From positions 1-64,000 of the forward strand of contig VBGM01000012.1 in the NCBI GenBank assembly GCA_005880855.1: DNA of 64,000 bases, read 5' to 3'. Numbering within the stretch: the stretch's first letter is position 1; each line of letters starts with the position of its first letter. The position numbers were made by a program, and so were the translations under genes. Of this stretch, positions 18,066 to 22,571 are shown in pieces. Source of the DNA: Chloroflexota bacterium (GTDB lineage: Bacteria; Chloroflexota; Dormibacteria; Dormibacterales; Dormibacteraceae). Below the pieces are notes generated by a model that made no database searches, had not been told where the DNA came from, and saw only the letters and a list, made by a program, of their open reading frames with translations.

Positions 18066-18581
18066 TCAGGGGTTGCCGCCGCTTCCACCTGACCCCGGGC
18101 TCTTGTGGGCGTTGGCGTTGGCATTGCTCTTGCCCTTGTCCTGGCTCTTGCCGTCGGACTTGCCTTTGTCCTTGCCGTTGCCGCGGGCGTCGCTCGCCTT
18201 GTGGCTCTGCTGCTGGCCGTGCTGCTTGGCGATCGCGCTCACGCAAGGGCCGATGCCACGGGTGCCGGACGCCCTGAGGGTGTCCTTGCACGTCTGCACC
18301 GCCTGCGTGACCGACTGACCCCAGTTGGACGGGTTCAGGCTGCCGGTCACCGCGACCTCGGTCGCCACCCCAGCCGCGGCGGCCGCAAAGGCGGCCACGG
18401 CCACCCCAGTCGCAAGCTTCATGCCGAGTGCGGCTCCCGCGCCACCCAGCAGCCTCTTCCTGAACCCTCCTGACACGGGGGCCCGACGGGGCGGAATGGG
18501 CACCGCCGCGATCGGATCGAGGATCCGATGCAGCTCACGCTCCAGCTCCAGCTCGAAGTCGCCGGTCCCGTTCATCGGCAA
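18066..18581 (-). CDS. Single-pass membrane protein downstream of ECF sigma factor
   Basis: The 171-residue protein has an acidic N-terminus (about 1-30), a Pro-rich joint, a hydrophobic Ala/Val segment near 50-75, and an outer domain with two Cys (VQTCKDTLR and GPCVSAIAK). The last 50 residues are low-complexity Lys, Gly, Ser, Asp and Asn (GKDKGKSDGKSQDKGKS). It starts 24 bp after the ECF sigma gene, which makes it the natural candidate for the anti-sigma or sensor partner, but it lacks the zinc-binding anti-sigma motif HxxxCxxC. I therefore call it a possible atypical partner only. Confidence 0.7.
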   Translation of the reverse strand: MPMNGTGDFELELERELHRILDPIAAVPIPPRRAPVSGGFRKRLLGGAGAALGMKLATGVAVAAFAAAAAGVATEVAVTGSLNPSNWGQSVTQAVQTCKDTLRASGTRGIGPCVSAIAKQHGQQQSHKASDARGNGKDKGKSDGKSQDKGKSNANANAHKSPGSGGSGGNP

Positions 18582-18605: not shown

Positions 18606-19172
18606 CTACCCAAACTTCTCTTGGCCCGCCCGGGTCCCCTCCAGCAGGCCCTGAAGCCGGGCCCGGGCCGCCGCGAGGCGAGATGCGACCGTCCGTTCGG
18701 GCACCTCCAGGGCGATGGCGATCTCCCGATTGGTATAGCCGTGGAAGTGACGTAGGACGATTGCCGCCGCCTGCTTCGGAGGCAGCTTGCGCAAGGCAAC
18801 GAGCAGGTCGGAGCGTTCGGCCAGGACCGCAGGGTCGGCCGGGGCAGTCGGCCTGCCCACTTTCTTGAGCAGCGCGCCGACCTCCTGGAGCCGCTCCTTC
18901 CTCTGCCCGTTGATCGCCACGTTGATGGCGATGCGGTGGAGCCAGGCTTCCGCCGGCGCATCGGGCCGCCATGTCTTCCAGGCCTTGTAAGCGCGCTCGA
19001 AGGCGTCCTGGGTGCAGTCCTCGGCGGCCGACCGATCGCGCAACATCGTGATCAGGGTCCCGAGGATGCGGCGGTAGGAGTTTCGGTAGAGGCGCTCGAA
19101 ATCCGCCTCAGACCCAGGGCGGTACTCGGCCGCGGGCTCCCCCCGTTGCTCTTCGCTTGACTCCGAACGAAT
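18606..19172 (-). CDS. ECF RNA polymerase sigma factor, apparent ATT start
   Basis: Region 2 (EADFERLYRNSYRRILGTL, SAAEDCTQDAFERAYKAW) and region 4 (LPPKQAAAIVLRHFHGYTNREIA, seen as LPPKQAA and REIAIALEVPERTV) identify an ECF sigma factor that directs RNA polymerase to a specific regulon. The first ATG, at 19046, would delete most of region 2.1-2.2, and no ATG, GTG or TTG occurs upstream before the in-frame TAA at 19181-19179. The best start is ATT at 19172, with GGGGAGG 10 nt upstream; this yields 188 residues, normal for the family. ATT starts are known for infC. A sequence error or broken start is the alternative. The membrane protein downstream may be its partner. Confidence 0.8.
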   Translation of the reverse strand: MRSESSEEQRGEPAAEYRPGSEADFERLYRNSYRRILGTLITMLRDRSAAEDCTQDAFERAYKAWKTWRPDAPAEAWLHRIAINVAINGQRKERLQEVGALLKKVGRPTAPADPAVLAERSDLLVALRKLPPKQAAAIVLRHFHGYTNREIAIALEVPERTVASRLAAARARLQGLLEGTRAGQEKFG

Positions 19173-19189
19173 GTTCGTTTAACCTCCCC
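19164..19189 (-). promoter_or_regulatory. Shine-Dalgarno site and start-codon hairpin of the ECF sigma gene
   Basis: On the minus strand GGGGAGG (19189-19183) precedes CGAAC-ATTC-GTTCG (19177-19164). The 5-bp inverted repeat would place the ATT start in the loop of a small RNA hairpin, or it may be a protein-binding site. Confidence 0.45.
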
Positions 19190-19197
19190 GACGCGCC

Positions 19198-21459
19198 ATG
19201 GCTGCCTCTCCCACCTTCGCTGCCGCCGATTTTCCGGGAGAGATCACCCTGGACCACGTCATTCCTGCGGTTGCCGCGGAGTTCGCCGCCCTGCCTTCCG
19301 ACCTCCGGGCCGAGCTTGCACAGGCCCTCGCCGCGCGCGGCATCGTACGCCTATACACACACCAGGCCGACGCATATAACGCGGTCCGGAACGGCCGCCA
19401 TCTCGTTGTGGTTACGCCCACCGCCAGCGGCAAGACGCTCTGTTACAACCTCCCCGTCCTGCAGCGCCTGCTCGAGAATCCTGAGCGCCGCGCGCTGTAT
19501 CTGTACCCGACGAAGGCGCTCGCGCAAGACCAGCTCGCCGAGCTGAGCGCGCTCAAGCACGGACTTCCCATTGACGTACGAGTCGACACCTACGACGGCG
19601 ACACCGCGCCCGGACGTCGCACCGCGATCCGCGAGGCGGGCCACGTCGTGATGACGAACCCGGACATGCTGCACACGGGCATCCTTCCGCATCACACGCG
19701 TTGGCGCAGGCTCTTCTCGAGCCTCGAGTTCGTCGTCATCGATGAGCTCCATACATATCGAGGCTTGTTCGGCAGCCAGGTCGCCAATGTCATCCGCCGG
19801 CTGAAACGCATCTGCGCCTTCTACGGGTCGAGCCCGACCTTCATCTGCGCATCGGCGACGATCGCCAATCCTCTGGAACTCGCCAGCAAGCTGCTGGAGG
19901 AGGAGAACATCGAGCTGATCGATCGCAGCGGTGCGCCCCGCGGAGAACGCCGCCTCATCTTCTACAACCCGCCGCTGCTGAATCGGGAGATGGGCATCCG
20001 CCGGAGCTCGATGCTCGAGGCTCGGCGCATTGCCGCGCCGTGGATTCGATCCGGCGTGCAGACCATTCTCTTCTGCCGCAGCCGGCTCCAGGTCGAGGTG
20101 ATGCTGAGCTACCTGCGCCAGGACCTCGCCCCCCGCCTCGATGCCTCCCAACGCGTGCGCGGGTATCGGGCCGGCTATCTACCGCTGCACCGTCGCGAGA
20201 TCGAGGCCGGCCTGCGCGACGGCGACATCACGGGAGTCGTCAGCACCAATGCCCTCGAGCTGGGCATCGACATCGGCAGCCTCCAGGCGGCAGTTCTCGT
20301 CGGATACCCCGGAACCATCGCCTCTACGTGGCAACAGCTCGGCCGGGCCGGAAGGCGGTCGGGGTCGGTTGGCGTCTTCGTCGCCTCGAGCTCGCCCCTC
20401 GACCAGTTCATCGTCCGCCACCCGGAATACTTCCTGAGCACGGATCCCGAGGAGGGTCTGATCGATCCGGACAACCTGCTGTTGCTCGCCGGCCACCTGC
20501 AAGCCGGGCTGTTCGAGCTTCCATTCGAGGCCGAGGAGAAGCTCGGTCGCTCAGATGTCGGCGAGCTGCTGCGGGTCTTCGAGGAGGACGGTTCGGCAAC
20601 ACGTTCCGGAGACCGCTGGTTCTGGAGCCGCCAGGCTTTTCCCGCCGAGGAGGTCCACCTCCGGCGCATCGCTGCCGACAACGTCGTCATCATCGACACC
20701 TCGAAACCACGCCCTTCGGTGATCGGCGAGATGGACCAGTTCTCCGCGCCGGTGCTCCTGCATGAGGAGGCGGTCTACCTGCACGAAGGCGCCCAGTTTC
20801 ACGTCGACCGCCTCGACTGGCACGAGAAGAAGGCATATGTGCATCCAGTCGACGTCGACTACTACACCGACGCCCTCGCCTCGGTGACGGTGCAGGTGCT
20901 CGACACGTTCGCTGGTCCGGAGGGAGACGCGATCGCCCGCAGTCATGGCGAGGTGAAGATCACGTCGCTGGCCAGCATGTTCAAGAAGATCCGATTTCAC
21001 ACGCACGAGAACATCGGCTCGGGACCCATCCATCTACCCGAGCAGACGTTGCACACGACCGGCTACTGGATCACCGTCGACGATCAGCTGTGGACAGCGC
21101 TCGGACGAGAAACTCTCGAAGCCGGGCTGCAGGGGATGGCGCACTCGCTTCGACACGTCGCCAGCATCCGGCTGATGTGCGACCCGCGCGACCTTGGCGC
21201 CGTGGCCGAGGTGCGCTCCGCCACCACGCGGCTGCCGACGGTGACGGTCTACGAGATCTACCCCGGGGGCGTCGGGTACTCGCAGCGCATGTACGAGCTG
21301 CACCTCGAGCTGCTCGAGCAAGCGGCCGCGCTGGTCAGCGACTGCCCCTGCCTCGCCGGATGTCCTTCCTGCATCGGACCGCTGCATCTCGTCGAAGGAG
21401 CCAAGAGCGCATGCCTGCGATTGCTGTCCGCGACCTCAGAGAGCGTCTTGATCGTCTAG
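19198..21459 (+). CDS. mrfA: DEAD/DEAH-box helicase MrfA-like with C-terminal zinc site
   Basis: The 753-residue protein has Walker A TPTASGKT at 73-80, VVIDELHTYRGLFG as the DEAH-type box II, CASATIANP motif III, and QQLGRAGRRSG motif VI. The C-terminal part is the DUF1998 region with four Cys in SDCPCLAGCPSCIG, the zinc site found in MrfA (YprA). In Bacillus subtilis MrfA works with MrfB to repair mitomycin C damage independently of UvrABC. The next gene is the matching MrfB-type nuclease, overlapping by 49 bp. TAACCT 12 nt before the ATG is a possible -10. Confidence 0.88.
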   Translation: MAASPTFAAADFPGEITLDHVIPAVAAEFAALPSDLRAELAQALAARGIVRLYTHQADAYNAVRNGRHLVVVTPTASGKTLCYNLPVLQRLLENPERRALYLYPTKALAQDQLAELSALKHGLPIDVRVDTYDGDTAPGRRTAIREAGHVVMTNPDMLHTGILPHHTRWRRLFSSLEFVVIDELHTYRGLFGSQVANVIRRLKRICAFYGSSPTFICASATIANPLELASKLLEEENIELIDRSGAPRGERRLIFYNPPLLNREMGIRRSSMLEARRIAAPWIRSGVQTILFCRSRLQVEVMLSYLRQDLAPRLDASQRVRGYRAGYLPLHRREIEAGLRDGDITGVVSTNALELGIDIGSLQAAVLVGYPGTIASTWQQLGRAGRRSGSVGVFVASSSPLDQFIVRHPEYFLSTDPEEGLIDPDNLLLLAGHLQAGLFELPFEAEEKLGRSDVGELLRVFEEDGSATRSGDRWFWSRQAFPAEEVHLRRIAADNVVIIDTSKPRPSVIGEMDQFSAPVLLHEEAVYLHEGAQFHVDRLDWHEKKAYVHPVDVDYYTDALASVTVQVLDTFAGPEGDAIARSHGEVKITSLASMFKKIRFHTHENIGSGPIHLPEQTLHTTGYWITVDDQLWTALGRETLEAGLQGMAHSLRHVASIRLMCDPRDLGAVAEVRSATTRLPTVTVYEIYPGGVGYSQRMYELHLELLEQAAALVSDCPCLAGCPSCIGPLHLVEGAKSACLRLLSATSESVLIV

Positions 21460-22571
21460 GCGGGCTTACCAGGCCGAGATCGAGGCCGCAACCCCAAGCC
21501 GAGCTCCCGCGCGGATTCGAGGCGGTGTCGACTCCATTCGGTGATGCGTTCCTTCGGGAGGACGTCATCCCGCTGCCGGCGCTCGATCCACATCCAGGAT
21601 CGGTCGCCTACATCGACACGGAGACCACTGGTCTCGGCGGCGGCGCGGGCACGTATGTTTTCGCGGCGGCGGTTGCACTGCCGATCGACTGCGGCCTCCG
21701 GCTGGCCCAGCTATTCCTGCCCCAGCCGGGCCTGGAAGCGGCGTTCCTGCATCGCTTGCGCCAGGAGCTGGAACCCGCCGGTAGTCTCGCCAGCTTCAAT
21801 GGAGGCTCGTTCGATCTCCCAGTGCTGAAGACGCGGTGGGTGATGGCGCGAATGCCCGGTGAGCTCGACCACCCGCCGCATGTGGACCTGCTCACGCTGG
21901 TCCGAGCCCTCTACAGGCACCGCCTCGAGAGCTGCACTCTGCGCATGGTTGAGGAACGAGTCCTGGGATACGAACGCAACGACCCGGTCACGGGCATGCT
22001 GGCCCCGGACGCCTACTTCGCTTATCTGCGCCGCGGGTCGAGCCCCATTCTCGAAGCGGTCCTCGAGCACAACCGGCTGGACGTCATCAGCCTCGTCCAC
22101 CTCCACTCGCGACTGCTCTCCCGGCTGAAAGGCGGCGACGGGAGCATGGACGCATCGGACTGGTTGGCGCTGGGCCGCCACAGGCTGCGCCGGGGAGCCC
22201 GCGCCGACGGCTGGCGCGCGCTCCGTAACGCGGCCGAATTCGCCGACGAGTCAGCCGCCACGGCGGGTCTGCTGCTGGCCCGGCGAATGGCGCGCCGGCG
22301 ATCGTCGGTGCCGGGCGCCGAGCAGCTGCTCGGGCTGCTCGAGTCTCGCGTCGCCACCGACATACGGCTGCCGGTGGCACGCGCGAGGCTGCTCGAATGG
22401 CGGCGCCGCGACCCCCAGCGGGCTTTGGCTGTCGTGGAGGCCGCTCAGAGCCGGCTTCCCGATGAAGCGGCGGCGCTGGAAGCTCGTCGAAACCGCCTCC
22501 GCCGTAAGGTTGCCAACCGGCATCCGATTAACAAGAGCACGGAAATGCCTGCTGCCTCGTTATTCGGTTAA
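21411..22571 (+). CDS. mrfB: MrfB/YprB-like exonuclease with helical repeats
   Basis: From ATG 21411 the protein is 386 residues. It has the RNase H-like DEDD exonuclease motifs: YIDTETTGLGGG with Asp69 and Glu71, SFNGGSFDLPVL with the second Asp, and EHNRLDVISLVHL with the last Asp. About 150 C-terminal residues form TPR-like helices (DWLALGRHRLRRGARADGW, seen as ALGRHRLRRG). Family and order match MrfB, the nuclease partner of MrfA in mitomycin C damage repair. The start lies inside the end of mrfA; frame upstream of 21411 is antisense-like and excluded. Conservation of the pair outside Bacillota is the notable point. Confidence 0.85.
   Translation: MPAIAVRDLRERLDRLGGLTRPRSRPQPQAELPRGFEAVSTPFGDAFLREDVIPLPALDPHPGSVAYIDTETTGLGGGAGTYVFAAAVALPIDCGLRLAQLFLPQPGLEAAFLHRLRQELEPAGSLASFNGGSFDLPVLKTRWVMARMPGELDHPPHVDLLTLVRALYRHRLESCTLRMVEERVLGYERNDPVTGMLAPDAYFAYLRRGSSPILEAVLEHNRLDVISLVHLHSRLLSRLKGGDGSMDASDWLALGRHRLRRGARADGWRALRNAAEFADESAATAGLLLARRMARRRSSVPGAEQLLGLLESRVATDIRLPVARARLLEWRRRDPQRALAVVEAAQSRLPDEAAALEARRNRLRRKVANRHPINKSTEMPAASLFG

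Follow-up and report, generated by a model that had tools for sequence, protein, structure and literature searches.

A predicted weak ATT start codon of an ECF sigma factor gene within the LexA operator of a divergent mrfAB promoter in Dormibacterota

The window, by which we mean the whole stretch of 64,000 nucleotides analyzed in the present study, raises the question of the codon at which an ECF sigma factor may be translated when its reading frame offers no standard start. The frame extends on the minus strand over 18606-19178 with its stop ending at 18606 (190 codons from stop to stop), and an in-frame TAA at 19181-19179 lies between the GGGGAGG and ATT sites listed in Table 1. The predicted protein matched the Pfam families Sigma70_r2 (E 1e-14; PF04542 at residues 30-96) and Sigma70_r4_2 (E 1e-15; PF08281 at residues 124-175) and scored above the cut-off of TIGR02937 (sigma70-ECF); it has sigma-70 regions 2 and 4 without region 3, as expected of an ECF (group IV) factor. 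The first ATG of the frame, at 19046, is located within region 2, and no ATG, GTG, or TTG was found in frame between the TAA and this codon in the window. The initial annotation, which had given these coordinates and pointed out the lack of a standard start upstream of the first ATG, was right in both respects, as shown by reading of the frame and by eight genomes in five genera that similarly lack any standard start from the upstream stop as far as region 2.

Table 1. Positions of the features discussed in the text (window coordinates).
Feature	Position	Strand	Remarks
ECF sigma factor gene	18606..19172	-	Sigma70_r2/r4_2 in Pfam; 188 codons, excluding the stop, from the proposed ATT start at 19172
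Proposed start codon ATT	19170..19172	-	Sole start-like codon common to relatives without ATG/GTG/TTG; ATG there in G002
Shine-Dalgarno sequence GGGGAGG	19183..19189	-	10 nt before ATT; GGAGG in 24/25 ECF-bearing genomes
Gene 2 behind the ECF gene	18066..18575	-	Small protein with a putative membrane segment; no Pfam family
LexA box CGAACGAATGTTCG	19164..19177	.	Perfect CGAAC-N4-GTTCG; contains ATT; the palindrome previously annotated as a hairpin
mrfA promoter	19157..19185	+	TTGACT 19157-19162, N17 spacer holding the LexA box, TAACCT 19180-19185
mrfA-type DNA-repair helicase	19198..21459	+	DEAD PF00270, Helicase_C PF00271, MrfA Zn-binding domain PF09369
mrfB-like exonuclease (RNase_H_2)	21411..22571	+	PF13482, E 8e-30; likely start ATG 21411

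Regarding the relatives, which are soil genomes labeled Chloroflexi CF_ or Candidatus Dormibacterota, the comparison covered 25 genomes of the Dormibacterota family, not independent of each other, in which the box separates mrfA from a divergent ECF gene. The codon at the ATT position was ATT in 21 of these 25 genomes and ATG, ATC, GTC, and GTT in one each, a distribution that, together with the retention of GGAGG in all but one, backs the initial proposal of ATT at 19172 as the likely start behind GGGGAGG. The recommended comparison with homologues went partly against this proposal, because the closest relative, G002 (92% identical), carries ATG exactly at this position; most of the other relatives keep ATT. 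A short contig of G002 (C153, L252) holds a second ECF-mrfA region that is nearly identical to that of G036 from genus g8 and is a probable contamination. Three g8 relatives have ATC, GTC, or GTT in place of ATT, and most members of this genus have TTG in frame two codons further on, which was created by a C to T change in the LexA half-site (GTTCG to GTTTG) and might be used as a start there.

An error in sequencing or assembly, or decay of the gene, would also leave a frame without a start, and the source genome is indeed fragmented (255 contigs), while the ECF gene of one relative, G033, is interrupted by a stop. This TAA lies in the ECF frame after about 45 codons (L033), and the gene of G033 is either a pseudogene or a sequence error. 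However, the eight genomes of five genera noted above share the same lack of a standard start, which rules out a base error, the refutation envisaged by the initial annotation, as a general explanation; the frame in the window is, moreover, intact with the domains of both regions 2 and 4 present, and we regard error or decay as scarcely credible.

No stops were found in the ECF frame of the stretch between ATT and region 2 (0/413), whereas the other two frames had 10/388 and 12/388; the stretch occurred in 11 lengths, all of which were multiples of three. This preservation of the frame indicates that the stretch is translated and, thus, that the start lies before it. Substitutions after ATT showed a mild excess at third codon positions (109 versus 78 and 79, from pairs that are not independent), which as evidence alone is weak. 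Among the first codons, ATT was the only one that was start-like in every genome without a standard start. The conserved (A)DFERLY stretch follows ATT at a distance of 22 codons, and all 33 ECF paralogues examined have a standard start, mostly ATG 22-29 codons before DFERLY. The gene thus shares with infC and sigR the absence of ATG, GTG, and TTG and a conserved non-canonical codon behind a Shine-Dalgarno sequence. The distance of 10 nt from GGAGG to ATT lies toward the upper limit of usual spacings; GGAGG-to-ATG spacing elsewhere, intended as a yardstick, provided too few GGAGG sites for a peak. GGAGG also shares positions with the mrfA -10 region on the opposite strand, and part of its conservation accordingly belongs to the mrfA promoter.

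The palindrome CGAACATTCGTTCG around ATT is a perfect CGAAC-N4-GTTCG site. Fourteen such sites were present in the genome versus two for the reversed control pattern, and the same motif stands in front of recA, lexA, and uvrB; the match is therefore common to recA and lexA of the same genome, as expected of an SOS operator. The arms of CGAACATTCGTTCG also match the LexA consensus of Gram-positive bacteria, CGAACRNRYGTTYC (PMC2248561), and on these sequence criteria the palindrome is a LexA box. It was present at mrfA in most genomes of the class that were examined, with or without an adjacent ECF gene, and the promoter geometry, with the box in the spacer, is repeated at two other boxes of the genome (L007 and L011) and in relatives. 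The operon downstream qualifies as a MrfAB pair, with a helicase carrying PF09369 (E 2e-19) and a neighboring PF13482 exonuclease, the start of which was assigned by eye after AAGGAG. Within 19180-19200, just 12 bp separate the -10 element from the ATG of mrfA, and because of this short distance the mRNA of mrfA probably has little or no leader. Neither the LexA site nor the divergent DNA-repair operon had been noticed in the initial annotation.

Several other boxes were encountered in the same survey. At L011 (G000 C162:4516), a LexA box lies between lexA and a divergent gene for a small protein with a LysM domain and a putative membrane segment, an arrangement that recalls yneA next to lexA in Firmicutes; a DUF222/HNH endonuclease gene lies directly behind a perfect LexA box at L004 (G000 C107:5422); and g8 relatives (e.g., L024 and L032) have a second LexA-like box, CGAACATATGTCC, over the start of mrfA.

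CGAAC-ATTC-GTTCG had previously been interpreted as a hairpin with ATT located in its loop. The palindrome is real, but represents no specific RNA feature and corresponds to the LexA operator of the divergent mrfA promoter. A hairpin hiding or presenting ATT in the mRNA draws some support from the isolated 19-nt stem-loop, which folds at -5.4 kcal/mol, and from the C to T change in g8, which retains a G-U pair; however, the 66-nt leader was no more structured than shuffled sequences (z = +0.88), and genomes that lack the ECF gene retain the palindrome at mrfA, besides which it occurs at recA, lexA, and uvrB. We rejected the hairpin on these grounds and give it very little credence; since the mrfA box is kept irrespective of the ECF gene, the RNA structure is best seen as a by-product of the LexA box.

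A more serious alternative is that ATT is conserved for the LexA box alone and that translation starts elsewhere, at a near-cognate codon, by frameshifting, or by reinitiation from an upstream ATG-TAA frame. ATT sits in the box, the box sequence CGAACGAATGTTCG recurs at another gene of the genome (L007), and G000 contains a short upstream frame, ATG GCG CGT CGG GGA GGT TAA, which G002 nearly matches. Nevertheless, this upstream frame is not conserved, and codon 1, ACG, is TCG in two of the genomes without a standard start. Furthermore, among the boxes of recA and lexA in this family, N4 was of 6 and 15 types, respectively, but never ATTC, and a preference of LexA alone thus does not explain ATT. 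At mrfA boxes of the family without an adjacent ECF gene, the position was occupied by ATG, ATC, GTC, or ACT, and never by ATT. Fisher tests, which ignore phylogeny, gave p values of about 1e-5 for the association of ATT with the ECF gene and 5e-5 for that of GGAGG.

Phylogeny was considered through nesting on the mrfA tree alone, on which four genomes placed within the ECF-bearing clade have lost or displaced the ECF gene. In G003 and G027, cysS now follows in its place; in G021, the ECF gene is lost and gene 2 remains; and in G013, an ECF gene is 580 nt away. ATT has changed in all four (to ATC in G003 and to ATG in G027, G021, and G013) and GGAGG has decayed in three, whereas the LexA box and -35 element are retained. 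ATT and GGAGG, which change when the ECF gene is lost or moved, therefore go with this gene, and conservation for LexA alone appears unlikely to us. The LexA site appears, from these sequences, to tolerate ATG at the ATT position, and because ECF-bearing genomes nonetheless keep ATT, its retention suggests selection for a weak start.

Considering these findings, the ECF sigma factor is most likely translated from an ATT start, predicted to be weak and IF3-sensitive, within the LexA operator of the divergent mrfAB promoter, a conclusion drawn from comparisons of sequences. Translation would begin at ATT 19172 with the aid of the strong Shine-Dalgarno sequence GGGGAGG, and ATT would hold the output of the sigma factor low and make it sensitive to IF3, as in Streptomyces sigR. 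Since ATT must be contained in the mRNA, the ECF transcript would have to start upstream of it, in or near mrfA. LexA occupying the box, and with it the DNA of the start codon, may obstruct RNA polymerase that arrives from an upstream ECF promoter, which would lower ECF expression until SOS induction, when the sigma factor may rise together with mrfAB. We advance more tentatively, as a possibility that we would not yet call probable, the wider proposal that a single 14-bp element has two jobs, as the LexA operator for mrfAB and as the start-codon site of the sigma factor, with the weak ATT under selection and the output of the sigma factor dependent on both the SOS state and the fidelity of initiation.

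We searched for the ECF promoter and did not locate it; GCGTTAT on the ECF strand, corresponding to a rare ATA codon in mrfA that is kept in most ECF-bearing relatives, is absent in this genome. In g8 relatives, the gap between the ECF gene and gene 2 holds a conserved AATGGTTG followed, after about 16 nt, by CGTTAT just before gene 2, and some g1 relatives have a weaker version, AATGGGTA. The arrangement in g8 may represent a promoter recognized by the ECF sigma factor. A gene 2 with a similar beginning comes after the ECF gene in relatives, and its product is possibly an anti-sigma factor; gene 2 gave no significant match in Pfam or NCBIfam, and an RsrA-like zinc anti-sigma factor was not recognized downstream.

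Regarding IF3, feedback of this factor on infC is known from Escherichia coli and Streptomyces. The infC gene had no in-frame ATG, GTG, or TTG before the conserved N[DE]QIR in any of the 30 family genomes read (L224, in G000 C162, and L265-L294), and this feedback thus probably operates in the family too. Candidate infC starts were ATC, ATA, or ATT after GAGGT, or ATC or GTC after AAGGAG. The lack of a standard start in infC of the family, together with sigR as an experimental precedent, makes the predicted IF3 sensitivity of the ECF start plausible.

Non-canonical starts of ECF sigma factors (sigR), ATT starts (infC), and LexA-controlled repair genes are already known. The literature searched, the coverage of which was limited, contained no case of a sigma factor with a conserved ATT start inside a LexA operator, and nothing on point was obtained for LexA sites in this phylum, mrfA under LexA, or a start codon inside a LexA operator. 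If the present interpretation is true, this would be a second ECF sigma factor with a non-canonical start, from another phylum and with another codon, and a second case would suggest that limiting the amount of a sigma factor by means of a weak start is a strategy used repeatedly. The overlap between the start codon and the LexA operator would, in addition, link the control of DNA damage with that of translation.

Among known systems, mrfAB of Bacillus subtilis, which functions in the repair of mitomycin C damage (PMC11194089), similarly consists of a helicase with the MrfA Zn-binding domain followed by an exonuclease; the operon described here differs in the presence of a LexA box and, within one clade, of an ECF sigma gene in divergent orientation. 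In Gram-positive bacteria, SOS promoters controlled by LexA likewise hold CGAAC-N4-GTTCG in the promoter spacer (PMC2248561), whereas the box in the window also covers the start codon of the divergent gene. The ATT/ATC-type start of infC resembles that of the ECF gene; however, infC regulates its own product, while the ECF gene would be a target. The closest parallel is sigR of Streptomyces, an ECF sigma factor gene with a GTC start that is repressed by IF3; the start is GTC in 32 of 34 relatives and GTT in two, and its change to ATG, GTG, or TTG led to overproduction of the sigma factor relative to its anti-sigma factor (PMC5472188). Both genes encode an ECF-type sigma factor and have a strong conserved ribosome-binding site, a conserved non-canonical start, and a partner gene downstream. 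They differ in that the codon here is ATT (ATC, GTC, GTT, or ATG in single relatives), lies inside a LexA operator, and belongs to Dormibacterota, that the downstream protein is not a recognizable RsrA, and that control by IF3, demonstrated for sigR, is predicted here.
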